Positions 2,550 to 22,448 of a stretch of DNA of 64,000 nucleotides are shown here, piece after piece. The notes beneath the pieces were generated by a model. The model saw nothing but the letters and a program-made list of their open reading frames with translations. It had not been told where the DNA came from and ran no database searches. The DNA lies in the NCBI RefSeq assembly GCF_015751905.1, contig NZ_JADOUF010000001.1, positions 1,116,001 through 1,180,000 of the forward strand, in the 5' to 3' direction. How positions within the stretch are numbered: position 1 is the stretch's first letter; each line of letters starts with the position of its first letter. The stretch is from Longispora fulva (GTDB taxonomy: Bacteria > Actinomycetota > Actinomycetes > Mycobacteriales > Micromonosporaceae). Position numbers and translations under genes: made by a program.

Positions 2550-3917
<1,368 letters not shown>

Positions 3918-3997: not shown

Positions 3998-4765
3998 TCA
4001 GGTCGAGTGTGGCGGTGGGCCGGGTCGCCGGGGCCGGCGGGCCTTCGCCAACAGCCGGCGCAGATTGCCGCCCAGCACGAGGCGTTCGGCGGCCGGCGGG
4101 AGCCCGAGCGCGCGGACCTTGGCGAGTTCGAGGCCCGGGTGCAGCAGCGGGCCGTCGGTACCGAAGAGGATCTTGTGCGGTCCGGCGCGGCGCACCGCCT
4201 CGACCAAGAGGTCGAAGTAGCGCACCCCGGACGTGTCCGTGTGGACGTTGCGGTGCCGGGCGAGGATGTCGAGGAACTGCCGCTGCGCGGCCCAGTGGTC
4301 CGGGAAGGACCCCAGGTGCGGCACGACGAAATCCACATCCGGGTACTCGGCCGCCACCACCTCCAACGGCGCCACCTCCCCGAACGGGTCGTACAGCACG
4401 GGCAGCCGCCACCGCAGCGCCACCTCGCATAGTTCCCGGGTCAGCGGCCCGTCGTGCCGGTGCGCCTTGATCCCCCGGAACCCGTGCACCGTGACCGCCT
4501 CGCCAACCAGGTCCCCGATCCGCCCGGCGTCGGAGACCGTGTGCACGAACGCGAACCCGAGGAACCGTCGCCGGTCGGCGGCGACGATCCGAGCCACCTC
4601 GCGGTTGGCGGTGGCGTAGTCGGAGTGGAACGCGGCGAACAGGACGGTGCGGTCGATGCCGGCGGCGCGGGCCCGGCGCAGGTAGCCGTCCAGTGGGGCG
4701 GCGGTGTCCCATGGCCCGGTCAGGCCGTCGCCGTGCCCGGCGTGACAGTGACAGTCGATGATCAC
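3998..4765 (-). CDS. Small metal-dependent amidohydrolase, last gene of the sigma-54 operon
   Basis: The 255-residue product begins VIIDCHCHAG with the HxH metal ligands (H6, H8) of amidohydrolase-2/TatD-type TIM barrels. It continues with GIKAHRHDG, VPHLGSF and the C-terminal FGTDGPLLHPG, whose Asp is the usual final ligand. Such enzymes hydrolyse or decarboxylate small cyclic or acidic substrates. The GTG start overlaps the stop of the PLP-enzyme gene (GTGA), so translation is coupled. The pairing with an acyl-CoA/amino-acid condensing-type enzyme suggests a two-step small-molecule modification, but no substrate can be inferred. It ends 80 bases from the convergent activator gene. Confidence 0.8.
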   Translation of the reverse strand: MIIDCHCHAGHGDGLTGPWDTAAPLDGYLRRARAAGIDRTVLFAAFHSDYATANREVARIVAADRRRFLGFAFVHTVSDAGRIGDLVGEAVTVHGFRGIKAHRHDGPLTRELCEVALRWRLPVLYDPFGEVAPLEVVAAEYPDVDFVVPHLGSFPDHWAAQRQFLDILARHRNVHTDTSGVRYFDLLVEAVRRAGPHKILFGTDGPLLHPGLELAKVRALGLPPAAERLVLGGNLRRLLAKARRPRRPGPPPHST

Positions 4766-6000
4766 CGCGAGCCCCGGTCCGCCGCCCGGGCCCGCGCCTC
4801 CGCCCGCACGGCGTCCACCAGCGCCCGCGCCGCCACGTCGATGTCCGCCGGCCGGTGCCGGGCGGTCACGGCGAAGGTGACCGCAACCTCCCGGTGGCCG
4901 CCGACCCTGGCGAGCACCGCGCGCACCCCCGCCTCGCCCAGTCTCCGGTGGACGCCGGGGCCGGCCGCGCCGAGCGGTACCCGTTGGATCGGCAGCGGCC
5001 CGGCGCCCAGCGGCAGCCCCGCCGCGCGCACCCGGTGCCGGAACCGGCCGACCAGTCCGGCGAGCCGGACGCGCAGCCGGTCGCCGACCGCGTCGTTGCG
5101 GTCCAGCGCGTGCTCGGCGGCGCGCAGGTCCGCGCTGCTCGGCGGGCTGGTGTGCACCTGGGCCGGGCCCGACCGGGCCACCGCGGCGATCAGCTCGCCC
5201 GGCCCGACGACAGCGGCCACCGGCGCGCCGAACGCCTTGGCGAGGGAGGCCACGACGAGCACCCGGGCCGGGTCGACGCCGTGCCAACGGAGGGAGCCGC
5301 CACCGCCCAGGCCGTAGGGCGCGCGCCGGAGACCGGTTTCGTCCCACCCGTGGTCCGTGCCGCTGGCGGCGTCCCCGTCGACAGGTCCGTTCCCGGGTCG
5401 GTGGACGTCGCGTGGCGGACCGGACTGTCGGGTGCCCAGCAGGCCGAGCGCCTGGGTGTCGTCGAGGATCACCAGTCCGTCGTACGGCCGGAGTACCCGC
5501 AGGTAGGCGGCCAGTGGCACCGGCCCGCACGCCACGCACAGCCCGTCGGCCAGGACGACCGGCCGGTGTCGCGGATGGCGGGCGACGGCCACGGCGAGCG
5601 ACGCCGGGTCGTGGTGTGCGAACGTGTCGACGGGACACCCGGCCCCGGCCGCGGCCCACCGCGCCACCGGGTACACACCGGAGTCGAGGAGCACCCGCCC
5701 GGTCCGGCCCGCCGCGCACGGCACGGCGTCGAGCAGGCCGTGCAGGGTCGAGCGGGCCAGTACGGCGGCCTCCCCGCCGGTCAGCCCGGCGAGGTCGCGG
5801 GCGACGCGCACCGCGGCGGCGGGGACGCCGAGGACCGCCGGGGCCCCGGTGGTGAGCCGCCGCCACGGACGCAGTTCCCCGCTCGGATGGACCATCCCGA
5901 GGAACAACGCCGAGGTGAAGTCGACGGCCCGCCCACCGGAGTGCCCGCTCCCCGCCGCGCCCGCGCGGTCCATCACGCCGGCCAGGCCCGCGCGGCCCAT
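4762..6000 (-). CDS. PLP-dependent alpha-oxoamine synthase-like enzyme (AONS/BioF type)
   Basis: The 412-residue protein follows the fold-type I alpha-oxoamine synthase pattern. It has a substrate segment near residues 126-135 (DTFAHHD), the aspartate motif VILDDTQALG (178-186) and the PLP-lysine motif VVASLAKAFG (K255). Family members condense an amino acid with an acyl-CoA. Two things are odd: the family His of DD(A)H is Gln here (DDTQ, Q183), and there is an insertion near 190-240 rich in Gly and charged residues. Activity may therefore differ from BioF or KBL. The start ATG shares its A with the stop of the preceding gene (TGATG), and its own stop overlaps the amidohydrolase start. Confidence 0.82.
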   Translation of the reverse strand: MGRAGLAGVMDRAGAAGSGHSGGRAVDFTSALFLGMVHPSGELRPWRRLTTGAPAVLGVPAAAVRVARDLAGLTGGEAAVLARSTLHGLLDAVPCAAGRTGRVLLDSGVYPVARWAAAGAGCPVDTFAHHDPASLAVAVARHPRHRPVVLADGLCVACGPVPLAAYLRVLRPYDGLVILDDTQALGLLGTRQSGPPRDVHRPGNGPVDGDAASGTDHGWDETGLRRAPYGLGGGGSLRWHGVDPARVLVVASLAKAFGAPVAAVVGPGELIAAVARSGPAQVHTSPPSSADLRAAEHALDRNDAVGDRLRVRLAGLVGRFRHRVRAAGLPLGAGPLPIQRVPLGAAGPGVHRRLGEAGVRAVLARVGGHREVAVTFAVTARHRPADIDVAARALVDAVRAEARARAADRGSR

Positions 6001-7832
6001 CACGCCCGCCGGGCCGCGCCGCCGCGCCGCTGCAACAGCGCGCTCGGCATCGCCCCGTTCACCCGCTCCGTGAGGTCCACCCCTGTCGCGGCCCGGTAGG
6101 CGTGCGCGTACCGCTGCAGTTCCGGCCGCCAGTACCGGGCCCAGTTGGCCGCCTCCTGCGGGTCGTTGAGAATCGACCAGTCGCCGTACCGGATGGACAG
6201 CAGGATCTGTTCCCCGTAGACGCCCATGTCCCGGAAGTGGGTGACGGTCACGTCCGTCCAGCCCTGCATCTGCTTCATGGTGTCGACCCGATCCATCCAC
6301 TCCTCCTCGTAGGGCACCATGATCCGGCCGCCCATGAACTCGCGCATCTCCGGCCGGGCCAGCAGCCACTCCATGATCAGCATCTCGGCCCGCGCGGAGG
6401 ACGGAAGGTCGCCGAACTGGTTGTGCGCGCCCTCCGCCAGCAGCAGGTGCGTCTCGCGCAGCGCGTTGAGCAGCGGGAACCCGTCGGCGAGCACCGTGGT
6501 GTCGTCATCCTCCTTGAAGAACACGTGCGCCAGGTGCAGCACGTTGTGGAACGACTCGATGAACTTGGACCGCCGGTCCACCACCTGCTCGTCGGGGATG
6601 GCCCGGCCGATCAGCCGCAGGCCGTACTCGTGCTCGTACTCGAAGGACCGGCGGCGCACCGTCAGCCGGCGGTACTCGTCGCTCGTCCATCCCCACAGCA
6701 GGTTCGACATCGGCCGCAGCGGATCCAGGTCGAACCGGACCAGGGGATCGCGCGCCCCGGCCACCCGCCGGTTCTCGAACCGGTTCATGATCGCGTTGAG
6801 GCTCTGGGCGAGCATGCCCTCCTCGTGCCAGTAGGACCAGATCAGCTCGATCGCCAGCGGTCCCGTGATGTGCGACTTGAGGATGCCGTAGCAGTTGTAC
6901 GGCAGTTCCTTCGACGGCTTGAGCGGGATGTCGTTGAGCCGTTCCCTGATCAGTTTCAGGTACGGCAGGACCAGCACCCCCTCGTCCACCAGGCTCTCGT
7001 AGTAGTTGTCCCGGTACTGCCGGATGTCGTCCAGCTGGGCCGTGCCGCCGAGCCGGCGGGCCTCCTCCAGCCGCAGCTTCAGTTGCCGCTGGGGGTCGCT
7101 GAGCTGTTCGTCGATGCTCTGCATCGCCCGGTCGGAGTCGAGGACCCCGGTCTCGTGCATGAGGAACACGTCGGTGGTCCGCTTGAGCAGCGCGTACGCG
7201 TCAGGCCCCCGGGCGTCTCCGGCGGGTCCCGAGCACATCACCTTGTCGACCCACGGCTTGTACTGCCGGAAGCCGATCGCGTTGGTCCGGTTCCGGATGA
7301 TCATCCAGAGGACCTGTCCGGGGGTCGGTTCGAGCGCGGTCCTCTGCAGGCTCACCGGCACCGCCCCGCCCCTGTCGCCGCTGCCGATCCCGGCCTCCAC
7401 GAACAGCTCCCAGACCGTGGAACGCGACGGGCCGTCGGCTTTCAGCGCCGGTTCCGGCGCTGGCGTCTTGCCCTTGCCCGGGGCCTTGGGCGGCAGTTTC
7501 GTCGGAAACGCCTCCTCGTAGGCGTCGGTCGCCCCGTCGGCCGGGGGCGGAGGCTCCTCGCCCTCCTCGCGGATCTTCGGGGTCCGCACACAGTAGATCC
7601 GGTACAGCCCGCCCCGGACCTTGTCGGTGTCCCAGTCGAACACCATATCCCCGGGGTACTGCCGGTCCGAGTCGCTGAACGGCCCCTCCACGTGCCACCG
7701 GTAGAAGTAGGCGTCGGGGTCCCCGTGCGACATGCTGGCGGTGAAGGTGACGACCGTGCCCGCCCGTACCGGTCGGGTGTGGTTGCCCGTGACGGTGAAC
7801 TCGTTGCCCTCGACGGTCAGGTTCGTGGTCAT
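6000..7832 (-). CDS. 610-residue protein with Ig/PKD-like N-terminus, function unknown
   Basis: Residues 1-90 look like a beta-sandwich (GNHTRPVRAGTVVTFTAS, then YFYRWHVEG), resembling PKD/Ig-like folds. A Pro/Lys/Ala-rich linker follows (about 90-150). The remaining 450 residues are helical and rich in Trp, Tyr, His and acidic residues; examples are IELIWSYWHEEGML, FHNVLHLAHVFFKEDDDTTV, LLLAEGAHNQFGDLP and MQGWTDVTVTHFRDMG. I have the impression of a conserved uncharacterised family but cannot name it. There is no signal peptide. The ATG overlaps the stop of the protease-like gene (ATGA) and the stop overlaps the next start, placing it in the middle of a strictly coupled set. Confidence 0.75.
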   Translation of the reverse strand: MTTNLTVEGNEFTVTGNHTRPVRAGTVVTFTASMSHGDPDAYFYRWHVEGPFSDSDRQYPGDMVFDWDTDKVRGGLYRIYCVRTPKIREEGEEPPPPADGATDAYEEAFPTKLPPKAPGKGKTPAPEPALKADGPSRSTVWELFVEAGIGSGDRGGAVPVSLQRTALEPTPGQVLWMIIRNRTNAIGFRQYKPWVDKVMCSGPAGDARGPDAYALLKRTTDVFLMHETGVLDSDRAMQSIDEQLSDPQRQLKLRLEEARRLGGTAQLDDIRQYRDNYYESLVDEGVLVLPYLKLIRERLNDIPLKPSKELPYNCYGILKSHITGPLAIELIWSYWHEEGMLAQSLNAIMNRFENRRVAGARDPLVRFDLDPLRPMSNLLWGWTSDEYRRLTVRRRSFEYEHEYGLRLIGRAIPDEQVVDRRSKFIESFHNVLHLAHVFFKEDDDTTVLADGFPLLNALRETHLLLAEGAHNQFGDLPSSARAEMLIMEWLLARPEMREFMGGRIMVPYEEEWMDRVDTMKQMQGWTDVTVTHFRDMGVYGEQILLSIRYGDWSILNDPQEAANWARYWRPELQRYAHAYRAATGVDLTERVNGAMPSALLQRRGGAARRA

Positions 7833-9100
7833 GGCTTGTTCTCCTCGATGGTGTGGGTGGAGCAGGCCGCGGCGGTGTCCAGGCTGCTGCGCAGCGCCCA
7901 GTGCGTGAGCAGCCGGCCGAGCAGCCTGCTCTCGGCCTCTGGCGTGATCAGGCCGGCGGCCCTGGCCTGCCCGACGGCGGCGAAGACGAGCGTCGGCGGT
8001 TGGGCCCCGAGTCCGGCCGGGCGGTCGCGGAAGGCGTGCCAGAACGCGAGCAGCCGTTCCGGCCGGCGGCTCGGCAGGACCAGATGGTCGCCGAGCGTCG
8101 CGCCCCCCAGGGCCGGCGGGCGGACGGCGAGCACGTGGTCGACGAAGGCGGGGATGCTGGCCTCCAGGCGGCCGAGCAGCTCCGCGTACCCGGGCGCGAG
8201 GCCGCGCGGCGGGTACAGCCCGCGCCACAGGGCGCTCAACGCGTCCCACTGCCGGTGCGGGTACAGGGCCCGGCCGAACGCGCAGCTGACCAGCACGCGC
8301 AGCCAGGGCACGGGATGCGGGTCGGCCCCGCCCGGGCGGAACACCGCCCACCGGGGCAGGCTGACCACGGCCATCAGGCCCAGGGTCGAGCCGGTCCCGA
8401 GCCGGGACACCGACCACAGGTCGGCGAGGATCTCCGAGATCCACCGGCTCCAGCTGGCCCACTCCGGGCCGGACCGGGCGGCCAGGGTCGGTCGGACGAC
8501 CTCCACCAGGGACAGCAGCGCCGCCGCCTGGTGGCCGACCTCGTGCACGAGCGACGAGGCGATGCCGTGCCCGACCATCCGTTCCCGGGGTACCCGGATG
8601 ATCGCCACCGGATTGGCCGCCCCGCCCGGCAGCTGGGTCCGCACCCGCCGGATCGCCGCGCCCGGCCCCCTGGCCAGATAGCAGGCGATCGGCGGCGCGT
8701 CGGGCAGCCGGAGCGCGTCGGTGGCCAGGACGTCCAGCCCGGACAGCCACACCCCGGTCGCGTGCTCGCTGCGTTGCGTGATTACCTCGGTGAACAGGTC
8801 GAACTGGGAGAGCACGTCGTTGAACCGCAGCCGCAGTAGCGTGAACCGGCGCTGCTGCTCCTCGGGGGCCGCCGCCCGGCCGGGTCCGGCGAGCCACCGC
8901 AGGTACCCGCCGATCAGTGCCCGCAGCTCGCGGCGCCCCCGGATCAGGAACTGGTCGATCGCTGACTGCGCGGTGGGGGCCAGCGCCGCCGCCGGCACCA
9001 TCGTCTCGTGCACGGCGAACGGCCGCACTCGGTCGAGTCGGGTCACCAGTGCCCGGGCCTCCTGCTCGAGGTACCAGTGCGCGGTGCCGGCGGCGGACAC
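7829..9100 (-). CDS. HEVGH zinc-metallopeptidase-like protein
   Basis: The 423-residue product has the zinc-protease motif SLVHEVGHQAAALL (H186, E187, H190). A glutamate in WISEILAD (E223), 33 residues downstream, matches a gluzincin-type third ligand. The N-terminal 130 residues are helical and charged. No signal peptide is seen, so it probably acts in the cytoplasm or after release. I chose the GTG that follows the stop of the preceding gene, because upstream in-frame sequence is a low-complexity shadow of that gene. The stop overlaps the next ATG. The two paralogous proteins encoded just before it are obvious candidate substrates, but this is inference. Confidence 0.8.
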   Translation of the reverse strand: MSAAGTAHWYLEQEARALVTRLDRVRPFAVHETMVPAAALAPTAQSAIDQFLIRGRRELRALIGGYLRWLAGPGRAAAPEEQQRRFTLLRLRFNDVLSQFDLFTEVITQRSEHATGVWLSGLDVLATDALRLPDAPPIACYLARGPGAAIRRVRTQLPGGAANPVAIIRVPRERMVGHGIASSLVHEVGHQAAALLSLVEVVRPTLAARSGPEWASWSRWISEILADLWSVSRLGTGSTLGLMAVVSLPRWAVFRPGGADPHPVPWLRVLVSCAFGRALYPHRQWDALSALWRGLYPPRGLAPGYAELLGRLEASIPAFVDHVLAVRPPALGGATLGDHLVLPSRRPERLLAFWHAFRDRPAGLGAQPPTLVFAAVGQARAAGLITPEAESRLLGRLLTHWALRSSLDTAAACSTHTIEENKP

Positions 9101-9101
9101 G

Positions 9102-9971
9102 TCAGGCCCCGACCACGACGATCTTGCGCCCGCGCCGGTACCACCGGCCGGACATCGCCCGCCCCGCCGGGGCGCCGCCCTCCACGGCCGGGAACGCGGC
9201 GGCCCACCCGTCGAGCGCGCGGCTGATCGGGTCGACGAACACCGGCCGCCGCCCGGGCGGCAGCGGGCGCTTCGGCTTCGGCAGGAACGCCCAGGTCGTC
9301 CGCGCCGGTCCGACCGCTCCACCAGCGGGTCCGGCCCACCCGCCCGTCGGGCGCGACGACCCGGGCGCGGACCCGCCCTGGATGAGCCGCAGCAGTCCCG
9401 GCGCGTGTTTGCGGGCCGCGACGGCGACAGCCGTGTGGGCGACCTTGAGCGGTTGCATGCCGCGCGGCGCGCGGGCGGCGTGCTTGGCCGCTCCGGCCGA
9501 CAGTCGGACGATCCTGCGGGCCACCTCGAAGTCGACCTCCTGGTCGGACATCGTCTCGCTGTCGATCTCGAAGAGTCCGGCGGCGGCCGAACCGAGCTGG
9601 GAACCGATCGCCGTGCCGATACCCGGGGCCACCCACGAGCCGAGCGCGCCGCCGACGACGGGCAGCGCCTTCTTCGCCACGTTCTTGAGGATGCCGCCCA
9701 AGGCCCGACCGGCGCTGGAGCGGGCGAAGTTGCCGACCCCGCGCACCGCCGAGCGGAACACGTTGCCGAGGAACTGGTCGAGTTCCTCCTCGTTGGCGAC
9801 CTGCAACAGCTGGCCGGCCAGTTCGTTCTCCATCGCCCCGCCGAGTTCGGAGTCGACCTCCTCCTCTTCCTCGTAGTCGGCCTCCTCCTCGTAGTCGGCG
9901 AACTCGTCCTCGAAGTCGGCCTCTTCCTCGTAGTTCTCGCCGATCTCCCACTGCTGCGCGTAGCTGGACAC
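9102..9971 (-). CDS. Acidic/glycine-zipper protein, paralogue 2 (289 residues)
   Basis: The protein starts with about 45 residues made mostly of Glu, Asp, Tyr and Phe. A conserved helix follows (ELAGQLLQVANEEELDQFLG), then a glycine-zipper stretch (VVGGALGSWVAPGIGTAIGS) capable of membrane insertion or self-assembly. After a helical region (DFEVARRIVRLSAGAAKHAARAP) comes a Pro/Gly-rich linker of about 75 residues that the paralogue lacks. The end, SGRWYRRGRKIVVVGA, matches the end of the neighbouring paralogue. The GTG start follows a TAGGAGGA box that overlaps the upstream stop, so the two paralogues are coupled. No known function is claimed; membrane-active or self-assembling behaviour is inferred from the zipper. 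Confidence 0.78.
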   Translation of the reverse strand: MSSYAQQWEIGENYEEEADFEDEFADYEEEADYEEEEEVDSELGGAMENELAGQLLQVANEEELDQFLGNVFRSAVRGVGNFARSSAGRALGGILKNVAKKALPVVGGALGSWVAPGIGTAIGSQLGSAAAGLFEIDSETMSDQEVDFEVARRIVRLSAGAAKHAARAPRGMQPLKVAHTAVAVAARKHAPGLLRLIQGGSAPGSSRPTGGWAGPAGGAVGPARTTWAFLPKPKRPLPPGRRPVFVDPISRALDGWAAAFPAVEGGAPAGRAMSGRWYRRGRKIVVVGA

Positions 9972-9980
9972 TGTCTCCTC

Positions 9981-10574
9981 CTAGTTATCGAAGATCACGA
10001 TGGTGCGGCCGTGGCGTTCCCAGCGCCCGGACCTGCGCCGACCGCCGCCTGACACCAGCCCGGGGGCGTTGTCGCGCGCGGCGGCCGCGATGGCGCGGCG
10101 CACCACGGCGGCGGCCGGCACGTGCGAGGGAGCCAGGGCGGCATTGCGGGCCGCCGCGTCGGCGAACCGGATGAAGCCCCGGGCCACCTCCCAGTCGCGG
10201 TCCTCCTGGCTGAGCCCTTCGACCTCCAGGCCGAAGACGTCGGCGGCGGCCTGCCCGACCCGGGCCCCGACGTCGCCGCCGCCGGGCACCGCCCACCCGC
10301 CGACGGCGCGGCCCACGATGGGCAGAGCGTCGCGGGCGGCCGACTTCAACACCCCGGTGAGCGCCTGGCCGGTGTCGGAGCGGAGGAACTGGCCGGCCGC
10401 GCTGGCCGCCCCCTTGACCAGGTCGCCGAGGAACTGGTCGAGTTCCTGGTCGCTGCCCAGCTCGAGGAGTGCCGAGGCGAGCTCGGACTCCTGCTGTTCG
10501 CCGAGCCCGGAGCCACCGGGGAGTTCCCCGGCGGCGTCCTCCTGCTCGTACACGGACCGATCCAGATCGTGCAT
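9981..10574 (-). CDS. Acidic/glycine-zipper protein, paralogue 1 (197 residues), first gene of the sigma-54 operon
   Basis: This is the shorter version of the paralogue encoded immediately downstream. It shares ELASALLELGSDQELDQFLG, the ALPIVGRAVGGWAVPGGG zipper-like segment, the helix with WEVARGFIRFADAAARNAAL and the tail SGRWERHGRTIVIFDN. The acidic N-terminus is shorter and lacks the Tyr/Phe-Glu repeats. It has an excellent ribosome site (GAGGAGG, 5 bases before ATG) and a 30-base predicted leader after a -24/-12 promoter. Being first in the operon with the best initiation signals, it may be the most abundant product. No signal peptide is visible. Confidence 0.8.
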   Translation of the reverse strand: MHDLDRSVYEQEDAAGELPGGSGLGEQQESELASALLELGSDQELDQFLGDLVKGAASAAGQFLRSDTGQALTGVLKSAARDALPIVGRAVGGWAVPGGGDVGARVGQAAADVFGLEVEGLSQEDRDWEVARGFIRFADAAARNAALAPSHVPAAAVVRRAIAAAARDNAPGLVSGGGRRRSGRWERHGRTIVIFDN

Positions 10575-10603: not shown

Positions 10604-10630
10604 CCCTCCTTCACTGCAGGATTCGTGCCA
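10604..10630 (-). promoter_or_regulatory. Sigma-54 (-24/-12) promoter of the six-gene operon
   Basis: On the minus strand 10630-10615 reads TGGCACGAATCCTGCA. Compared with the established consensus YTGGCACG-N4-TTGCW it has one mismatch (C for the first T of TTGC), and the diagnostic GG-N10-GC spacing is exact. The predicted start is near 10604, 30 bases before the ATG of the first operon gene. This was the only such match noticed by eye at an intergenic position in front of a gene. Confidence 0.85.
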
Positions 10631-10798
10631 GGGCGTCGACGCGGGGGCGGCTCCGCACGAGCGAACACCTTTTCGGGGGTACGGTGGCCGGGGCCCCGAA
10701 TCTTCGTTCGGCCCGCTCCGGCCCGGTGGCTCGGCGGGCGGCGGCGGGGCGAGGCGGTGACGCGGCGGGCGGCGCGGCGAGGCGGGCGGCGCGGCGGG

Positions 10799-12019
10799 TC
10801 AGCGGTGCTGGGCGGGCGCGATCGCGAGCTGGCCCCGGTACTTCGCGACCGTGCGCCGCGACACCGGATACCCCCGCCGTGCCAGCTCCACGGCGAGCTC
10901 GCCGTCGGTGAGCGGCCGGTCCTCGGCGGCGACGAGGCGGGCGAGCAGTTCCCGGGTGCGGGTGCCGCCCCCGAAGAACGCGCCGAACGCCTCGGTCCGG
11001 CCGGCGGGCAGCAGCACGACCTTGTCGGCCACGGCCCGGCCCACGGTCGTCTCGTGCAGCCCCAGGTCCCGGGCGACGTCGGTGCGGCTCAGGGGCCGGT
11101 GCCCCGCCGGGCCGGTGCGCACGAAGCCGGCCTGCCGGCGGATGACGTACTCGGCGACCCGGCGCAGGGTGCCGGCCCGCCGGGAGAGCCGGGCGAGGAA
11201 CTCGCGGGCGGCGGCCACCTGGGCCCGCACCGCGGAGCACTCCTCGGGGCTGAGCCCGACCGGCGCGGCGGCGAGCCGGGCGTACTCCCGGTTGATCCGC
11301 AGGTCCGCGCCCACGGCCGGCACGTCGACCTCCAGGGTGCCGCCCGGTCCGATCCGGACGACGACGTCCGGCGGGGCGGGGACGCCGGACCCCGAATCGG
11401 GCCCGGCGTGCGGGACGAGCCGGTGTTTGACGAAGTCCACGGCCGCCAGCACGTCGGCGACCGGGTGTCCCAGGGCGGCGGCGATCCGGTCGCACCGGCC
11501 GGCGGCCACGTCCCCGAGGTGCCCGGCGATGATCGGCCGCACCAGGTCCGGGGCCTGCACCGGCAGCGCGTCGAGGTGCAGCAGCAGCGCGTCGGCCAGG
11601 TCCGCGGCCCCGGTGCCGGGCGGCCCGACGGTCCGGATCGCCGCAAGCGCCCCGTCGACCCGGGCCACGTCCACGCCCAGCCACGCGGCGGCCTGCGCGG
11701 GGGTGCGCCCGAGCCAGCCGCGGCGGTCCAGGTCCGCGCACAGGTGCCCGGCGATCCACCGGTCGGCCCCGGGCAGCAGGACGGCGGCCTCGGCGAACAG
11801 GGTCTCCCAGCCCCGGCATCCGGCGGCCAGCTGGTCGGGGTCGGGGCCGGGGGCGTGCCCGCGCCGGTCGGCCGGGACGGACTCCAGCGCCGGGTTTCCG
11901 GCCAGTTCCCGGTCGATGTCGGCCACCAGCTCCGTCGCGGGCATGGCCAGCACGGTCGCGAGGGCCACCTGTTCGGCGTGCGCGCGCAGTTCGGTCGTCG
12001 GTCGGAGTACCAGGTCCAC
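10799..12019 (-). CDS. rpoN: RNA polymerase sigma-54 factor
   Basis: The 406-residue protein aligns along the whole RpoN layout. Region I is at 1-47 (LRPTTELRAHAEQ then ELVADIDRELAGNPALES). The core-binding region includes IRTVGPPGTGAADLADALLLHL (about 128-149). The HTH LSRTDVARDLGLHETTVGRAVADK (310-333) is followed by TEAFGAFFGGG, and the RpoN box SRRTVAKYR (387-395) lies near the C-terminus. It is about 70 residues shorter than the E. coli protein, mainly through a reduced acidic region II. This factor directs RNA polymerase to -24/-12 promoters and needs an AAA+ activator, both found within 10 kb. Its presence is surprising because sigma-54 is generally regarded as missing from Actinobacteria. 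Start: GTG, apparently leaderless. Confidence 0.95.
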   Translation of the reverse strand: MDLVLRPTTELRAHAEQVALATVLAMPATELVADIDRELAGNPALESVPADRRGHAPGPDPDQLAAGCRGWETLFAEAAVLLPGADRWIAGHLCADLDRRGWLGRTPAQAAAWLGVDVARVDGALAAIRTVGPPGTGAADLADALLLHLDALPVQAPDLVRPIIAGHLGDVAAGRCDRIAAALGHPVADVLAAVDFVKHRLVPHAGPDSGSGVPAPPDVVVRIGPGGTLEVDVPAVGADLRINREYARLAAAPVGLSPEECSAVRAQVAAAREFLARLSRRAGTLRRVAEYVIRRQAGFVRTGPAGHRPLSRTDVARDLGLHETTVGRAVADKVVLLPAGRTEAFGAFFGGGTRTRELLARLVAAEDRPLTDGELAVELARRGYPVSRRTVAKYRGQLAIAPAQHR

Positions 12020-12119: not shown

Positions 12120-13934
12120 TCAGGCCCCCGGAGGGGCGTCGAAGGGTGCGCTCCAGGTCTGGTTCGGCTGGTTGGTGCCGCAGGTGTACAGCGCGATCGT
12201 GGAGTTCTTGTCGCCCACGGCCCCGCCGAACACGTCCATGCACTTCGTGCCCACCGCCAGCTGCCCGGACCGCTTGTAGGTCCAGATCTGGCTGGCGTCG
12301 CCGGTGTTGCAGACGGCCATCTTCATGCCGGTGCCGTCGGCGGAGACGCAGTTGGCGGCGTTCTGGACGGACTGGATCTGACCGGTGGACAGCCGGCGCC
12401 ACTGCTGGTTGGTGCCGCCGTGGCAGTCCCACAGCGCGACCTTGTTGCCGACCGCCGCGCCGGTGTACGCGTCCAGGCACAGGGCGTTGGCCTGGAACCC
12501 GGACTGCACGGCCTGGATCACGCCGGTCGGCGTCGCCCCGCCGCAGCTACCCGGGTCGATGGTGTACATCGCGTTGTCGTGCGAGCCGAGGCTCAGCGCG
12601 ATCGAGCCGGTGACCGACTGGTTGGTGTGCGTCCACAGGTTGCGCGCGGTCCGCGAGCAGGTGAGGTTGCCGAAGCCGACCAGGCCCAGGTCCAGGGTGT
12701 AGTTGACGGTGGCGGCGCCCTTGTTGACCACGGTCACGGCGCGCTTGCCGCCGGCCAGCGGCTTGACCACGACGTCGACGCCGGTGTCGTTGTTCGCGGA
12801 GTCCTCACGCCGGGCGAGGTAGCCGCCGGCGCCGAGGGAGTCCTGGTCCACGGCGATGATGTCGGAGTTCTTCAGGATCGCCAGCTGGGCGGCGTAGGTG
12901 GTCGGGTCGGCGGCCATCTTGCGCACGTCCGTGCTGATCATCAGCGGGGAGCCCATCGCCGACCACAGCGCGAACTGGCTGCGCTGCTCGGCCAGGGTGA
13001 GCTGGTTGTTGTCCCCGATCAGCAGCATGTCGGCGTCGTTGGAGTTGCCGGGGGAGTTGTACCGGGCCAGGGCCACGGAGTCGGTGTAGTTCTGCAGGAT
13101 CCCGCCCTCGTAGGCCTGCGAGGCCAGGGGCGCGTTCCACGCGGAGACCTGGGGGTTGTGCCACAGGGTGATGTCGGGGCTGACCCGCCACATCTGGCCG
13201 AGGCCGCGCACGTAGTTCATCGCGTCGTACTTCTGCGAGCTGTTCGGCGAGGCCCCCGCCGGCGCGGACTCGTTGAGCAGGATCTTGCGGCTGGTGTTCG
13301 CGGTCGCGGTCTTCAGCGCGTTGGCGAAGGTGGTCAGGACCTGCTGGCGGTTGTCGAACGTCGTCCCGCAGTTGTCGACCTTGATCGAGTCGGCGCCCCA
13401 GTACGCGAGGGAGTTCGCGTCGACCTGCTCGTGGCCGAGGATGCCGCCGGGCACGCCCTGGCAGGTGTTCACCCCGGAGGTGGTGTACAGGCCCATCTGC
13501 ATGCCGAGGCCGTGCAGGTAGTTGCCGTAGTCGGTGAGCTCCCAGTCGAATCCCGGCTGGCTGCTGCCGCCCCAGGTGGCCGAGCCGTGCAGGTAACCGG
13601 CGGAGGTCCGCTGCATCCAACAGTCGTCGACCGTGAGGTTCGTGTACCCGGCCGCGACGAGGCCGGTGTCCGACATGGCCTTCGCCTGGTCCTGCATGAA
13701 CTGCTGGAAGGAGTAGCCGCTGCTCGTGCCGTCGAGCCGCTGCTGCGCAGCACAGGTGAACCTGGCCCAGTTGTTGAAGCCCATGATCGGCTTCACGCCG
13801 ATCGCCGTGCTGGTGTTCGCCGCGATCGGGTCCGCCTGCGACGCGCCGCCCGAGGCGACCAGCCCGGCCACGGTCAGGGCGGTGGCGGCGCCGCCGGCGA
13901 GCAGCCGGCGGGACCAGCTCCGTGGTGTCTTCAT
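12120..13934 (-). CDS. Secreted GH27 alpha-galactosidase with ricin-type lectin domain
   Basis: The 604-residue precursor has an n-region rich in Arg, a hydrophobic core and an Ala/Asp cleavage area ending near SQADP, so it is secreted. A GH27 barrel follows: MGFNNWARFTC is the family's N-terminal signature and SIKVDNCG carries the nucleophile Asp. A C-terminal beta-trefoil (CBM13) has three QxW repeats (QQW, QIW, QTW). It should release terminal alpha-galactose (or beta-L-arabinopyranose, a related GH27 activity) from plant polysaccharides. The internal ATG of MKTPRSWSRR was chosen because upstream residues do not form a signal peptide. A repeat operator lies just before the start. Confidence 0.92.
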   Translation of the reverse strand: MKTPRSWSRRLLAGGAATALTVAGLVASGGASQADPIAANTSTAIGVKPIMGFNNWARFTCAAQQRLDGTSSGYSFQQFMQDQAKAMSDTGLVAAGYTNLTVDDCWMQRTSAGYLHGSATWGGSSQPGFDWELTDYGNYLHGLGMQMGLYTTSGVNTCQGVPGGILGHEQVDANSLAYWGADSIKVDNCGTTFDNRQQVLTTFANALKTATANTSRKILLNESAPAGASPNSSQKYDAMNYVRGLGQMWRVSPDITLWHNPQVSAWNAPLASQAYEGGILQNYTDSVALARYNSPGNSNDADMLLIGDNNQLTLAEQRSQFALWSAMGSPLMISTDVRKMAADPTTYAAQLAILKNSDIIAVDQDSLGAGGYLARREDSANNDTGVDVVVKPLAGGKRAVTVVNKGAATVNYTLDLGLVGFGNLTCSRTARNLWTHTNQSVTGSIALSLGSHDNAMYTIDPGSCGGATPTGVIQAVQSGFQANALCLDAYTGAAVGNKVALWDCHGGTNQQWRRLSTGQIQSVQNAANCVSADGTGMKMAVCNTGDASQIWTYKRSGQLAVGTKCMDVFGGAVGDKNSTIALYTCGTNQPNQTWSAPFDAPPGA

Positions 13935-13952
13935 GCTCTCTCCTCGGGTGTG

Positions 13953-14028
13953 TCTGCAAAAATCTGCAATCCAACCCCCGATCTCTTGCAGATTTGAGCA
14001 GGGTGGCATGAGTCACAATACCTGTCAA
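13953..14028 (-). promoter_or_regulatory. Promoter and operator of the alpha-galactosidase gene
   Basis: A 9-bp perfect inverted repeat, AATCTGCAA (13961-13969) and TTGCAGATT (13986-13994), sits between the promoter and the start codon. A further TCTGCAA copy at 13953 is spaced exactly 10 bases from the next, i.e. one helical turn. A TTGACA -35 lies on the minus strand at 14028-14023; its -10 is weak. The arrangement fits a sugar-responsive repressor acting as a roadblock. Confidence 0.6.
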
Positions 14029-14168: not shown

Positions 14169-14231
14169 ATGTCGCACCGTTCGAGTCCGCACGTTCCCGG
14201 TGGCTACTCGGGTCTGCGCAGGACGCACTGA
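14169..14231 (+). CDS. Possible 20-residue upstream leader peptide
   Basis: An ATG with a fair ribosome site (CAGGAG, 6 bases upstream) opens a 20-codon frame (MSHRSSPHVPGGYSGLRRTH). It stops one base before the phospholipase C ATG (TGACATG). The phospholipase start has only a weak site of its own, so ribosomes finishing the peptide could reinitiate there. Nothing else supports its translation. Confidence 0.35.
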   Translation: MSHRSSPHVPGGYSGLRRTH

Positions 14232-14232
14232 C

Positions 14233-16782
14233 ATGGATAGGCGTAACTTTCTGCGGTCGGCGGCGCTGACCGCCGGCGCCGCGGGCGCCTTCACGGTGCT
14301 GCCCGAGAGCCTGCGCCGGGCCATGGCCATGGCCGCGCCGACCGGGGGCCTGGAGGTCATCGAGCACGTGGTGATCCTCATGCAGGAGAACCGCTCCTTC
14401 GACCACTACTACGGCTCGCTGCGCGGCGTGCGCGGCTTCAACGACCCGGCCGCGATCACGCTGCCCACCGGCCGGCCCGTGTTCCAGCAGACCGACGGCA
14501 ACGGCTACGTGCTGCCGTACCCGGTGAACGACCAGTTCATGTCGGGCACCGCGCACGACTGGACCTCCGGCCACGATGCGTGGAACGGGGGCCGCTACGA
14601 CCAGTGGGTCGCCAAGAAGGGCAAGCGCACGATGACGACCCACCTGCGGTCGGCGCTGCCGTTCTACTACGCCCTGGCCGACGCGTTCACGATCTGCGAC
14701 GCGTACCACTGCTCGGAGAACGGCCCGACGAACCCGAACCGGCTGTTCCTGTGGACGGGCATGCTGGGCTACGAGCCCGACGGCTCGCGGGCCATCGGCA
14801 ACGCCGCCTGGCAGAACCCGACCCACCCCGGCTACTCGTGGACCGCCTACGCGGAGCGGCTCCAGGCGGCGGGGAAGACCTGGCGGGTGTACCAGGAGTG
14901 GGACAACTACGGCGACAACTCGCTGGACTACATGGCGACGTTCCTCAACATCGGCCGCAAGGCGGTGTCGAAGACGAACGACGGCACCGGCAAGCCGTAC
15001 GCCAACGTGGAGTACTTCCACTACGCCCTGGAGAAGGCCACCCCCGCCGGGCAGACGACGTTGCTCGACCAGCTCGCGGCCGGCCTGGCGACCCTGACGT
15101 CCGCCGAGCGCGACCTCTACGACCGTGGCCTGGCGCGGGTCCGGCCCGACCAGCTCGTGGCGGCGTTCGGCGACGACGTCGCCAACAACCGGCTGCCGGC
15201 CGTGTCCTGGATCGTGGCACCGGAGAAGAAGACCGAGCACCCGGACTGGGGCCCGAACAACGGCGCGGACCTGACGAAGCAGCTCCTCGACAGGCTGGCG
15301 TCGAACCCGGCGGTGTGGAACAAGACCGTCGTCCTGATCACCTACGACGAGAACGACGGCTTCTTCGACCACGTGCCGCCGCCGGTCCCGCCGCTGAGCG
15401 CGAACGACGGGCTGTCCACCGTGCCGATCACCGACGAGGTGGTCGGCAGCCAGCCGATCGGCCTCGGCGCCCGGGTACCGATGATCGTGGTGTCGCCGTG
15501 GAGCCGGGGCGGCAACGTCTGCTCGCAGACCTTCGACCACACGTCGGTGCTGCAGTTCCTGGAGAAGTGGACCGGCATCGCGGAGCCGAACATCTCGCCG
15601 TGGCGCCGGGCCGTCTGTGGCGACCTGACCTCGGCGTTCGACCTGACCACCGCCAACGTGACCTATCCGACGCTGCCCACCCCGGTGCCGACGGGCGGGC
15701 CGATGTCGACCAACCCGCAGCCGCCGGCCAACCAGGCGCTGCCCGCGCAGGAGAGCGGGCCGCGCACCGCCCGCGCGCTGCCGTACACGCTGACGGTGTC
15801 CGGCCGGGTCGCCGCCGACGGGTTCACGCTCGACTTCACGAGCGCGGGGACGGCCGGGGCGCACTTCTACGTCTACGCCAACGCGTTCCGCACCGACGGC
15901 CCGTGGCGGTACACGGTGGAGGCCGGCAAGACCCTGTCGGACACGTGGGTCGTCGGCAGCCCGACCGGTTCGTACGACCTCACCGCGGTCGGGCCCAACG
16001 GGTTCGTGCGCCGGTTCGCCGGCAACCGGGTCACGGCCACCGCCAGCGGGAACGCGAACCCGGAGGTGACGCTGCGGTACGCGCCGACCGAGAACCGGGT
16101 GTACCTGAAGATGGTCAACACCGGCACGAAGGCGTGCGTCGTCACGGTGCGCGGCAACAACCGCTCCGGCGGCCCGTGGCCGTACACCCTGGCCGCCGGG
16201 GCGACCGTGGAGGACTACTTCAGCACCGGCCCCACCAACGGCTGGTACGACCTGACCGCCACCGCCGACACCACCGACGGGTTCCTCCGCCGGTTCGCCG
16301 GGCACATGGAGAACGGGGCGGCGAGCATCAGCGACCCGGTGATGGCGTCGGGAAAGCTGCCCTGCACAGTCCGGTCCTTCGACAGCCAGGAGACCGTGGG
16401 GGAGTCCGGCGCCGCGACCAACGCGGTCGACGGCAACCCGGCGACGATGTGGCACACGAAGTGGTATGGCGGCAACGCCCCGCTGCCCCACGAGCTCCAG
16501 CTCGACCTGGGCTCGAACCGCACCGTCACCGGGCTGACCTACCTGCCCAGACAGGACGGCGGGGTCAACGGCCGCATCGGCCAGTACGAGGTCTACCTCA
16601 GCACCGATGGCACCACCTGGGGTACGGCCGCGGTGACCGGGACGTTCGCCGACGACGCGACGGCCAAGACCGTCCGCTGTTGGCCCACGACGGCCCGCTA
16701 CGTCCGGCTCCGGGCCCTGACCGAAGCCGGCGGCCGCGGCCCCTGGACCTCCGCCGCGGAGGTCACCCCCCTCGGATGGTGA
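14233..16782 (+). CDS. Tat-secreted phospholipase C with C-terminal discoidin-like domain
   Basis: The 849-residue protein starts with a twin-arginine signal (DRRNFLRSAA) and a hydrophobic stretch. The phosphoesterase domain opens with HVVILMQENRSFDHYYG, the hallmark of the PlcN/PlcH non-haemolytic and haemolytic phospholipase C family. It extends to about residue 480, including the ligand-rich TYDENDGFFDHVPPP. Two DUF756-type beta domains follow (about 500-690), as usual for this family. A C-terminal F5/8 type C (CBM32-like) domain is fused on (ATNAVDGNPATMWHT onward), which may tether the enzyme to glycans. The enzyme hydrolyses phosphatidylcholine-type lipids outside the cell, likely for phosphate or nutrient supply. 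Confidence 0.93.
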   Translation: MDRRNFLRSAALTAGAAGAFTVLPESLRRAMAMAAPTGGLEVIEHVVILMQENRSFDHYYGSLRGVRGFNDPAAITLPTGRPVFQQTDGNGYVLPYPVNDQFMSGTAHDWTSGHDAWNGGRYDQWVAKKGKRTMTTHLRSALPFYYALADAFTICDAYHCSENGPTNPNRLFLWTGMLGYEPDGSRAIGNAAWQNPTHPGYSWTAYAERLQAAGKTWRVYQEWDNYGDNSLDYMATFLNIGRKAVSKTNDGTGKPYANVEYFHYALEKATPAGQTTLLDQLAAGLATLTSAERDLYDRGLARVRPDQLVAAFGDDVANNRLPAVSWIVAPEKKTEHPDWGPNNGADLTKQLLDRLASNPAVWNKTVVLITYDENDGFFDHVPPPVPPLSANDGLSTVPITDEVVGSQPIGLGARVPMIVVSPWSRGGNVCSQTFDHTSVLQFLEKWTGIAEPNISPWRRAVCGDLTSAFDLTTANVTYPTLPTPVPTGGPMSTNPQPPANQALPAQESGPRTARALPYTLTVSGRVAADGFTLDFTSAGTAGAHFYVYANAFRTDGPWRYTVEAGKTLSDTWVVGSPTGSYDLTAVGPNGFVRRFAGNRVTATASGNANPEVTLRYAPTENRVYLKMVNTGTKACVVTVRGNNRSGGPWPYTLAAGATVEDYFSTGPTNGWYDLTATADTTDGFLRRFAGHMENGAASISDPVMASGKLPCTVRSFDSQETVGESGAATNAVDGNPATMWHTKWYGGNAPLPHELQLDLGSNRTVTGLTYLPRQDGGVNGRIGQYEVYLSTDGTTWGTAAVTGTFADDATAKTVRCWPTTARYVRLRALTEAGGRGPWTSAAEVTPLGW

Positions 16783-18263: not shown

Positions 18264-21200
18264 TTATCTGACCAGGGCCCGGATTCGCCCGACCTCCGGC
18301 ACGTCGAGCCCGTCGAGGAGCGCCGCCGCCGCCCGCCAGTGCTCCCGGGCGGCGTCCCCGCCCGCCGCCGCACCCAGGGTGATCAGTGCCCGCGCCGCGC
18401 CGATCCGGTGCCCGCCGGGGCCGAGGACGTCGAACGCCGCACCCGCCGCCTCCGCCGCCGCCGGGTCCCCGGCAGCGAGCCGGGCCTCGGCCAGCTCGCC
18501 CAGCGCCACCCCCTCCAGGAGCCGGAAGTGCCGGGTCCTGGCCACCTCGACCGCCAGCGCCGCGTGTCCGACGGCCTCGTCGGCCCGGCCCGTCGCCCGG
18601 GCCGTGGCGGACAGGCCGACCAGGGCCAGGATCTCCGCGTCCGGCAGACCGGCGGCGCGGGCCCCGGCGAGCGCCTCGGAGTGCAGCCTCCCGGCGTCGG
18701 CGTGCCGGCCGAGGCCGCCGAGGACCATGCCCAACGTCCGGCGGACCAGCGCCTCCACATAGGGGTGCTCGAACAGCAGGATCGTGGCCAACGCGCGTTC
18801 GGCGTGCTCCAGGGCCATCTCGGGCCGGCCGGCGTCGTGGTGGACCTCCGCCAGGGTGTTGTACATCCCGGCCTCCAGCACGTCGTCGTGGTGCCGGACC
18901 AGTTCGAGGGCCTCGGTGATGTTGGCGACCGCCTCGTCCAGCCGGCCCAGCTGGTGGTTGAGCATGGCGAGGTTGGACAGGGTCAGCGCCAGCGGCCCCG
19001 GCGAGCCGCTCGACCGGTGGATCGCCAGCGCCCGGGACATGTGCTCCTCGGCGGCGGCCAGCTCGCACAGCTCGAAGTGCACCCCGGACAGGCCGACGAG
19101 GTTGGTGGCCAGGTGGATGGGGCGCCCGGTCCGTTCGTTGAGGGCGATCGCGCGCCGGTGGTGCACGGCGGCCTCGCGCAGGTTGCCGGCCTCGGAGTGC
19201 GCGATGCCGAGGTGTCCCTCGGCGGAGGCCTCCTCGTGGTCCCAGCCGGCCAGCCGGGCCAGCTCCGCCGCCTGCCCGAGGTGCTCGATCGCCTCCTCGT
19301 ACCGGCTGGCCCGGAGTCGGGCCAGCCCGAGGCCGAACCGCATCGCCGCCCGGCCGTGCGGGTCGTCGGCGGCCTCTGCGGCGGCCAGCCCGGCGGCGGA
19401 CACCGCCAGCCCGTCGGCGGCGTGCGCGCCCCGGACGAAGTATCCGCGCAGGTAGTAGGCCAGTTGCCAGGCGAACCGGCCGGGTCCGTGCTCGGCGGCG
19501 TACCCGGCGGCGGAGATCAGGTTGGGCCGCTCGGCGTCCAGCCACCGCAGCGCCGACTCCGGGTCGGCGAACGGCGGGTCCTGCCCGTCGCGGCCCGGGA
19601 ACGCCGGCAGTAGCGGCAACAGGGCCTGCCCGCCGGCCGCCGCGTGCCGCAGGTAGTGCTCGAACAGCCGCTCTACCGACGCGTCCCGCCCGGCGGGGCC
19701 GTCCTCGGCGAGGCTGCGTTCCCGGGCGTACCGGCGGATCAGGTCGTGCAGGACGAGCCGGCCGCCCCCGCGCGACTCGACGAGGTGCGCGCCGGTGAGC
19801 CGGTCGAGCACGGCGGCGCCGGCGCCGGGGCCGGCGTCGGCGTCGGCGAGCACGGCGGCGACCTCGGCGGTGAAGTCGGGGCCGGGGACCAGACCGAGCC
19901 GGCGGAACATCACCCGCTCGTCGTCGGTGAGCCGCGCGTAGGACTGGTCGAACGCCGGCCGGACGGCGGAGCGCTCGTCGTCGGGCACCGCCAGCCGGTC
20001 GATCGTGTCGGCGGCCGTCAGCTCGGCCACGTGCTCGGCGATCAGGCGGTCGGGCAGCACGGACAGGTTCGCCGCCGTGATCCGCAGGGCGAGCGGCAGC
20101 CGGTCGCACGCGGTGGCCAGCGCCGCGAGCGCCTCGGGTTCGGCGTCGGCGCGGTGCCGGCCGATGATCCGGCTGATCAGGTCGCCGGCCTCGGCGGGCG
20201 CGAGCGGGGCCAGGGGCAGGGCGCGGGCGCCCTCGCGGGCGACGAGGCCGGTGAGCCGGTCGCGGCTGGTGACGAGGACCTGGCAGCCGGGGGAGGAGCC
20301 CGGCAGCAGCGGCCGGACGTGCTCGGCCGTGGCGGCGTTGTCGAGGACGACCAGCATCCGGCGGCCGGCGAGCAGGGACCGGTACCGCTCGGCGGCGGCG
20401 TCCAGGTCCTCCGGGATCCGCTCCGGCTCGACGCCCAGCGCCCGCAGCAGCCGGGACAGGGCCACCAGCGCGGACACCGGCGGGCCGGGGTCGTAGCCGC
20501 GCAGGTCGACGTACAGCTGCCCGTCGGGGAACAGGTCAGACCGCTGGTGTCCCCAGTGGATGGCGAGCGCCGTCTTGCCGACGCCGGCCGTCCCGGTGAC
20601 CAGGGTGATCAGCACCGCCGTGCCGTCCGGGCCGGACCCGGCGAGCCGGTCGAGGTCGGCCAGTTCGGCGTGCCGGCCGGTGAAGTCGCCGACGTCGGTC
20701 GGCAGCCCGGCGGGGGCGGCGGGCCCGGCGGCCGGTCGCGGGTCGAGATCGGGGTCGGAGCGCAGGATCGCGGCGTGCAGCTCCCGCAGCTCGGGGCCGG
20801 GGTCCAGGCCGTGCTCCTCGGCGAGCAGCCGGTGCAGGTCGCGGTAGCACTCCAGGGCCTCGGCCTGGCGACCGGACACGTACAGCGCGTGCATCCGGTG
20901 CCCGGCCAGCTTCTCGCGGAGCGGGTGCGCGGCCGCGAACGGGGCGAGGTAGGCCGCGATGTCCAGGTCGGTGCCCGTCGCCAGGCACAGGGCCGCGTAC
21001 TCCTCCACACAGCCCAGTCGCTGCTCGTCCAGGCCGGCGGCGGCGGCGAGCAGCGCCGGACCGGACAGGTCGGCCAGCGCCGGGCCGCGCCACAGGTCCA
21101 GCGCCTCGCGGTACACCCGGATCGCCTGCTCGGTCGGCAGCTCCCGGGCCTCGGCGGCCAGCCGCTGGAACACCCGGGCGTCGAGCTGGTCCGGGTCGGC

Positions 21201-21476: not shown

Positions 21477-21596
21477 CGTGCCCCCGTCCGCATGGTGAAC
21501 GGGGAGAATCGTAGAGCGTCGCGGGTCGATATGACGAAAACCTTGTCGAATCCTCGCTGATGGGTTTCCGATAGTGCCACCGAGCAGGATCGGGGC

Positions 21597-22319: not shown

Positions 22320-22448
22320 CCGGCGTCGGTGTGCGCGCGCACCACTGCGGGCCTGCGGAAACCTGTGCCGGCGGCCATGTCGGGGCCGGCACGGCGCTCG
22401 TAGCATTGTGGAGTGACCCAGGTCACTTTCTCCTCGTGGAGGCCCCTC

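Follow-up and report, generated by a model that had tools for sequence, protein, structure and literature searches.

Sigma-54 (RpoN) works together with AAA+ enhancer-binding proteins of the NtrC, NifA and PspF class. Actinobacteria were described in 2011 as lacking the sigma-54 system (PMC3162934), rpoN was counted in 2 of 182 Actinobacteria genomes (PMC3372290), and a 2025 survey recorded it in 4 of 173, one of them misclassified and the rest set aside, which concluded that the Actinomycetota are effectively without functional RpoN and proposed high GC content as a reason (PMC12316311). A candidate rpoN gene on a Micromonosporaceae chromosome raises the question of whether such a gene can be genuine in this group and, if so, what it controls. 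The window analysed here is a 64-kb stretch with a GC content of 73.7%, covering positions 1116001-1180000 of one 8,676,660-base contig, a closed chromosome.

A divergent sigma-54 gene on a closed chromosome

The original prediction had placed an rpoN gene at 10799-12019 on the strength of region I, a helix-turn-helix motif and an RpoN box. The open reading frame is real, encodes 406 aa and contains both quoted motifs, LGLHETTVGRAVADK and the RpoN box SRRTVAKYR. In Pfam searches of the product, Sigma54_DBD (PF04552; 7.8e-26, 91.2 bits, cut-off 22.8) and Sigma54_CBD (PF04963; 2.9e-18, 66.7 bits, cut-off 22.9) passed their cut-offs, whereas the region I profile Sigma54_AID (PF00309) stayed below its own (E 0.0024, 18.1 bits, cut-off 23.8), so that the proposed check against three profiles came out positive for two of them. 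Using phmmer against PDB sequences, we obtained 23 matches at E<=0.001, every one named sigma-54 or RpoN (best 6.9e-27), with no significant alignment over region I. Since the AID score is below cut-off and region I did not align to PDB sequences, the claim that this region is present stands for a degenerate form only, which MAFFT could align to relatives (...LxxxIxxELxxNPALE). Only a short stretch separates region I from the CBD, and the NCBIfam model TIGR02395 (rpoN) matched at 1.3e-51 and 176 bits, under its equivalog cut-off of 277. Judged by these profiles and alignments, the product is a divergent but genuine sigma-54.

The gene is the sole PF04552 match in its own genome. Rarity of sigma-54 in this group is the one point in favour of assembly contamination or a mis-binned contig, a condition that had been named beforehand as fatal to the prediction. 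The gene lies within a single closed contig of 8.68 Mb, its GC by codon position (0.85/0.55/0.96) matches the pattern of the window, and the same cluster recurs in other genomes of several families, all of which makes this explanation so improbable that we consider it ruled out. Neighbouring genes outside the cluster described below (12120-14009, 14200-16782 and 18264-23105) encode an alpha-galactosidase with a ricin-type lectin part, a phospholipase-C-like phosphoesterase and a large AfsR/SARP-like regulator, respectively.

A linked activator, a row of six genes and candidate control sites

The original prediction was silent on any linked activator, promoter, enhancers or target operon. Inspection of the DNA on the downstream side of rpoN revealed the following features.

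10799-12019, minus strand: rpoN, sigma-54, 406 aa (Pfam, TIGR02395, phmmer against PDB sequences, alignment)
10697-10710, minus strand: enhancer-like site 1, CGAACGAAGATTCG, with its midpoint 73 nt before the T of TGG
10662-10675, minus strand: enhancer-like site 2, CGAAAAGGTGTTCG, with its midpoint 38 nt before the T of TGG
10615-10630, minus strand: -24/-12 sigma-54-type promoter, TGGCACGAATCCTGCA, some 41 nt ahead of the ATG that starts the operon
9981-10574, minus strand: first gene of the inferred operon, 197-aa acidic glycine-zipper-like protein starting MHDLDR
9102-9971, minus strand: second, paralogous 289-aa acidic glycine-zipper-like protein with C-terminal GRWYRRGRKIVVVGA
7829-9100, minus strand: 423-aa HEVGH protein, putative metalloprotease (HExxH being the only basis)
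6000-7832, minus strand: protein of about 610 aa with an N-terminal Ig/PKD-like part and a conserved helical part
4762-5991, minus strand: PLP-dependent alpha-oxoamine-synthase-like enzyme, approximate start (bioF 2.8e-14, below cut-off)
3998-4765, minus strand: amidohydrolase, final gene of the row (Amidohydro_2, 1e-18)
2550-3917, plus strand: sigma-54 activator (enhancer-binding protein), 455 aa, AAA+ with GAFTGA and a Fis-type helix-turn-helix

The six genes between the activator and rpoN form a closely packed row on the minus strand, which we infer to be one operon. The start of the PKD-like gene was deduced from an ATGA overlap, and its protein was analysed as 6000-7826. The activator gene is convergent with this row. 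Its product matched PF00158 (Sigma54_activat; 5.7e-53) and HTH_8 (22.7 bits, cut-off 22), Walker A is present, GAFTGA is intact, and the C-terminal Fis-type helix-turn-helix carries VTDRALQLRR. It accounts for the one strong PF00158 match of the genome (182.5 bits); three further matches above cut-off are weak (22.7-28.6 bits). GAFTGA is kept in 14 of 15 aligned activator rows, the fifteenth (L057) being a fragment. At that locus the activator (5587-6849) is full-length by tblastn, yet open reading frame extraction gave 103 aa only, possibly owing to a frameshift, a sequencing error or an extraction flaw.

The cluster recurs at the RpoN loci examined in the window's class

To find out how common the gene is, we searched 354 Micromonosporaceae genomes with PF04552 and obtained 12 raw matches, nine of which represent full-length RpoN, the window included; the three weak matches resembled neither RpoN nor the cluster in tblastn. 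At all nine loci rpoN, the operon core and the activator occur together, with rpoN divergent in G340. A class-wide sample of 394 genomes gave seven raw matches and three full-length RpoN. Both new genes adjoin a Gly-zipper gene and the promoter, and close relatives of the HEVGH protein (E<=3.6e-169) were present in exactly these three genomes. Nine other genomes of the class (L185-L193) contain distant HEVGH relatives only (E 1e-18 to 1e-42). Among 112 Geodermatophilaceae genomes three encode RpoN, and the one new locus, L180, is also linked to the operon. The suggested survey of related actinomycetes thus did recover the gene, in 9 of 354, 3 of 394 and 3 of 112 genomes.

Outside the window's class, a sample of 396 genomes from the phylum contained 15 strong long-frame RpoN (126-197 bits against PF04552). 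These genes (L034-L048) span six families. No cluster operon gene was detected within the roughly 3.4 kb examined at each, and four have an activator-like match nearby. In the light of these genes, the view that sigma-54 is absent from Actinobacteria, on which the original prediction drew, calls for some qualification.

Starting from the operon instead, we used the HEVGH alignment to scan named genomes. Of the 158 relatives detected, we retained the 80 best, which comprise 49 from Pseudomonadota, 10 from Actinomycetota, five from Chloroflexota, 15 from eight further phyla and one unplaced. The operon is hence present in at least nine other phyla. Within these best 80 of 158, rpoN lies in the locus in seven, all Actinomycetota; in Agromyces, the end of another contig carries rpoN and the first operon gene together with a perfect promoter. 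Two of the eight RpoN genomes found through the operon duplicate G003 and G022 and were counted once, leaving 18 distinct actinomycete RpoN loci, 12 from the RpoN search and six from the operon. In all 18, rpoN adjoins the operon, a linkage that is not independent for the six loci found through the operon itself; all 12 loci from the RpoN search adjoin a Gly-zipper gene and the promoter. The circuit recurs across actinomycetes, in six or more named families.

In the 70 non-actinomycete loci from the best 80 of 158, rpoN was found in none within the locus DNA examined, and the activator is present in 49, rising to 39 of 42 where more than 20.5 kb was examined. Whole genomes were searched for 45 of the best 80 carriers, and 41 contain RpoN. 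The four without a match comprise two Streptomyces and two MAGs, one from Chloroflexi and one from Acidobacteria; in these MAGs rpoN may have been missed, since promoter or enhancer cores are kept there. Streptomyces xylophagus (L131) and S. scabichelini (L121, on a 5-kb contig) retain the operon core with no RpoN in the genome, and their locus DNA yielded neither an activator match nor a -24/-12 promoter. In L131 one enhancer-like core lies at the start of the first gene. At both loci the operon appears to have been rewired naturally to a promoter of a different type.

A conserved, predicted -24/-12 promoter before the first gene

The site TGGCACGAATCCTGCA is the top-scoring -24/-12 match of the whole window. 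Taken by itself it is within chance, since two one-mismatch promoter matches occur in the 64 kb where 0.67 would be expected, and 12 of 100 shuffles yield at least two; the case accordingly rests on position and conservation. A loose scan with TGGN9TGC gave 67 matches against 35.8 expected and had no discriminating power. To assess conservation, we scored the 330 nt after the rpoN stop in the actinomycete loci or, in G340 with its divergent rpoN, the region before the first gene. A site of at least 19 (of 21.2) was present in 16 of the 18 loci, where dinucleotide shuffles predict 0.09. The exceptions, L056 and L057, are sister Geodermatophilaceae loci whose best sites score 16.2, two of them tied. 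Both have GCGCACGCTTCTTGCA about 43 nt before ATGCACGAC, in the place where other loci have the promoter, and their RpoN box is altered to SRSAVRKYR. Three loci with the box ARRTVAKHR have TGGCCC. It is suggestive that RpoN box and -24 element changed together, a pattern seen in two clades only. Across named genomes, actinomycetes included, a site scoring 18.7 or more precedes the first Gly-zipper gene in 59 of 73 loci, and 14 fall short of this threshold; 186 of 3650 background windows reach it.

We also looked for signs of sigma-54 autoregulation. Upstream of rpoN in 17 loci (G340 omitted), sites of at least 18 were detected in G010, G152 and G052 only, and none before the rpoN of the window, for which we therefore set autoregulation aside.

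Paired palindromic sites upstream of the promoter

Inverted repeats upstream of the actinomycete promoters led us to define by eye an enhancer 16-mer, GCGAAGC-N2-GCTTCGC. We then applied it to 54 non-actinomycete loci selected for a promoter score of at least 18.7 and enough upstream DNA. It was found with at most four mismatches in 47 of them, compared with 540 of 3240 shuffles, and the mean number of mismatches was 2.5 against 5.4 in shuffled DNA (1.9 against 4.7 for the 18 actinomycete loci). This result on the 54 loci is the sole independent test of the motif, because the simpler core CGAAN6TTCG was chosen after both sets of loci had been viewed. The core occurs in 53 of the 54 non-actinomycete loci (shuffles 52/5400) and in 11 of the 18 actinomycete loci (shuffles 6/1800); three more actinomycete loci carry it with one mismatch. 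In actinomycete loci, 19 cores fall in 3,960 nt upstream as opposed to five in 478,087 nt elsewhere.

At least two cores are present in 47 of the 54 non-actinomycete loci, 45 of these with a spacing of 41-42 bp. Eight of the 18 actinomycete loci have two cores, 20 to 44 bp apart, and only three of them show 42-44 bp; in the window the distance is 35 bp, as compared with the 41-42 bp of most non-actinomycete loci. Rayleigh values are indicative only, as eight periods were scanned over related, paired sites. The two sites of the window fit the core alone, and its best match to the full 16-mer lies elsewhere, at -162.

No core was found upstream in L173 or in G010, G152 and G052. In the last three, the activators have also lost the VTDRALQLRR recognition helix. 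Owing to the missing core, the lost helix and a variant RpoN box, we regard the circuit of these three genomes as decayed or changed.

One target or many, and remnant or working gene

Could the linked operon be just one member of a wider RpoN regulon? The sequence TGGCACN6TGCW occurs 25 times in the genome, and other promoters might lack this enhancer. Against such a regulon, 25 sites are far fewer than the 161 of the backward control, a core followed after 20-50 nt by a promoter exists once in the 8.68-Mb genome, at this locus (backward control 0), only one activator is strong, and 12 of 12 loci from the RpoN search sit at this operon. We consider a wider regulon unlikely.

A second alternative holds that rpoN is a decaying or non-functional remnant of a transfer and that the operon is driven by a promoter of the sigma-70 family. 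Published work on the phylum amounts to this view, as the passages concerned set such genes aside (PMC12316311). It would fit with the sub-threshold region I, with the fast evolution of this RpoN and with the two Streptomyces, which keep the operon with no RpoN in the genome and neither activator match nor promoter in the locus DNA examined, and hence indicate that the operon can be kept in the absence of sigma-54. However, the rpoN frames are long and open in 18 of 18 loci, the RpoN box is recognisable in all and canonical in most, GAFTGA persists in the activator rows (14/15), promoter and enhancers exceed chance across loci, and in the two Streptomyces the promoter is gone where rpoN is gone. 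These observations leave the remnant explanation with a small probability, slightly below that of the wider regulon.

The actinomycete RpoN form one clade beside Chloroflexota

A phylogeny had been proposed as a further check, with a clade of actinomycete sequences as the supporting outcome. In a 65-row maximum-likelihood tree, the 15 actinomycete RpoN of the cluster indeed form one clade (100/97), placed beside two Chloroflexota RpoN (99/91), with two further ones branching next (100/98), and apart from Pseudomonadota RpoN and from RpoN of other Actinomycetota classes. Quick trees likewise grouped the actinomycete activators (support 99), as well as 15 actinomycete HEVGH proteins with those of two Streptomyces (support 99). 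The rows of the RpoN tree comprise RpoN only, from operon carriers and from the same phylum, so that the tree places the gene within RpoN. Because of this sampling and of long branches (1.02 for the window, 2.34 for G155), the donor phylum is likely rather than certain. The original prediction had offered a rare acquisition or an overlooked lineage-specific system; both halves find support.

A zinc-ribbon-like insert of the form CxxC...CxxC, located after region I and ahead of the CBD, is present in 13 of 17 actinomycete RpoN, with CGC as the second half in two of these 13, and in two of four Chloroflexota RpoN; of these four rows, L170 is cut at the start and could not show it. It is absent from all 31 other RpoN and from all 15 of the other Actinomycetota classes. 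The L180 protein, outside the 13/17 count, has the insert too; the window RpoN does not. The insert may thus mark this branch of RpoN.

The operon products

The HEVGH protein has no Pfam family and no PDB sequence match, and its structural model (pLDDT 87) has no PDB fold match at E<=0.001. The PKD-like protein also lacks a Pfam family, and its model (pLDDT 69) is without a PDB match at E<=0.001; AAVR domains, which are PKD domains, resemble its N-terminal part (E 0.38, target TM 0.68). The oxoamine-synthase-like gene has no full-length match in three of eight family relatives (G010, G152 and G052).

The possibility that the cargo belongs to a known phage, defence or plasmid system was pursued and rejected. 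In PHROGs a single cargo protein had matches, all of them weak (best 0.0064), and the remaining five had none, while the activator matched a family of unknown function; PADLOC returned nothing for the six window proteins submitted; and six of 72,556 plasmid records matched, with no informative annotation; the one record inspected more closely has no gene annotated at the site.

For the Gly-zipper proteins, 172 open reading frames from 85 loci were compared, and a C-terminal GRWxRRGxxI-like motif stands out: 123 of the 172 have [RKEQ][WY]xRxGxx[IV] within the last 40 residues. In Nitrosomonas ureae one Gly-zipper protein also contains Amidase_2 and PG_binding_1, and the row there includes M20 peptidase and aminotransferase genes. 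The Gly-zipper proteins look like exported or envelope proteins. A role of the operon in the cell envelope is a guess, one that would fit the view, put forward in PMC3162934, of sigma-54 as a controller of the cell exterior.

A probable self-contained sigma-54 circuit

Together with their conservation, the tree and the single joint site in the genome, the parts and their order, all read from the DNA, make it highly probable that this locus is a self-contained and probably single-target sigma-54 circuit. Holoenzyme formation, activator binding, transcription, the extent of the operon, an inducing signal and the roles of the products are predictions from this arrangement. RpoN would take the place of a sigma-70-type factor on the host RNA polymerase, and the resulting holoenzyme would bind at 10615-10630, the -24/-12 promoter. 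The linked AAA+ activator would bind the two palindromic candidate enhancers (10662-10675 and 10697-10710), touch the closed complex through its GAFTGA loop and use ATP for opening. The operon would thereby be switched on from 10574 down to 3998, yielding Gly-zipper-like, HExxH and PKD-like proteins and two enzymes.

As for its origin, operon, activator, enhancers and promoter probably represent an old sigma-54-dependent module common to many phyla, most carriers of which have rpoN elsewhere in the genome. On entry into actinomycetes devoid of sigma-54, the module would have brought or gained an rpoN of its own, nearest among those compared to Chloroflexota RpoN. We think it likely, with somewhat less confidence than for the circuit itself, that an enhancer-dependent module has in this way acted as a complete, portable package, brought its own sigma factor into high-GC actinomycetes that lacked sigma-54, and now operates there with actinobacterial RNA polymerase as an insulated circuit of one promoter, in which RpoN box and -24 element, as well as activator helix and enhancer, would have changed together, on an RpoN branch marked by the zinc-ribbon-like insert.

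The circuit resembles classic sigma-54 systems in its CBD and DBD, RpoN box, -24/-12 promoter, GAFTGA activator and paired upstream palindromic sites as candidate enhancers. It differs from them in the degenerate region I, the short region II, an apparently single target, the CxxC-CxxC-like insert in most of the clade and a host group said to lack sigma-54. Cereibacter has several rpoN genes. RpoN3 of Cereibacter sphaeroides is paired with a cognate activator (PMC11999139), and rpoN2 of Mesorhizobium loti R7A is an extra copy in a strain whose nifA copies lie on a symbiosis island, rpoN1 being elsewhere on the chromosome (PMC3538637). Both share with the present locus a sigma-54 copy tied to a particular activator and regulon; unlike in these bacteria with multiple rpoN, the copy described here is the sole PF04552 match of its genome.

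The gene itself is not unseen, as PMC3372290 and PMC12316311 have already counted actinobacterial rpoN. The latter names rpoN in Alloactinosynnema L-07, Modestobacter marinus BC501 and Citricoccus SGAir0253-1, and its passages on these three describe no linked activator, promoter or operon. All three plausibly belong to the clade defined here, judging from the Modestobacter relative L057 in our tree. In the titles and abstracts that our literature search covered, and in passages of the three survey papers cited at the outset, we found no description of the complete circuit.

Because the circuit is conserved in at least six families and occurs in a window of 74% GC, our comparative data argue against the conclusion that Actinomycetota effectively lack functional RpoN, and against high GC content as a reason (PMC12316311). 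A system supposed to be absent, and the explanation offered for its absence, become directly testable. The locus would represent a natural case in which a sigma factor has lost its global regulon and retained a single promoter together with its enhancers and activator, and it could offer actinomycete genetics a switch that is compact and separate. Beyond this phylum, it draws attention to an operon that is widespread and uncharacterised and, in many phyla, apparently controlled by sigma-54.
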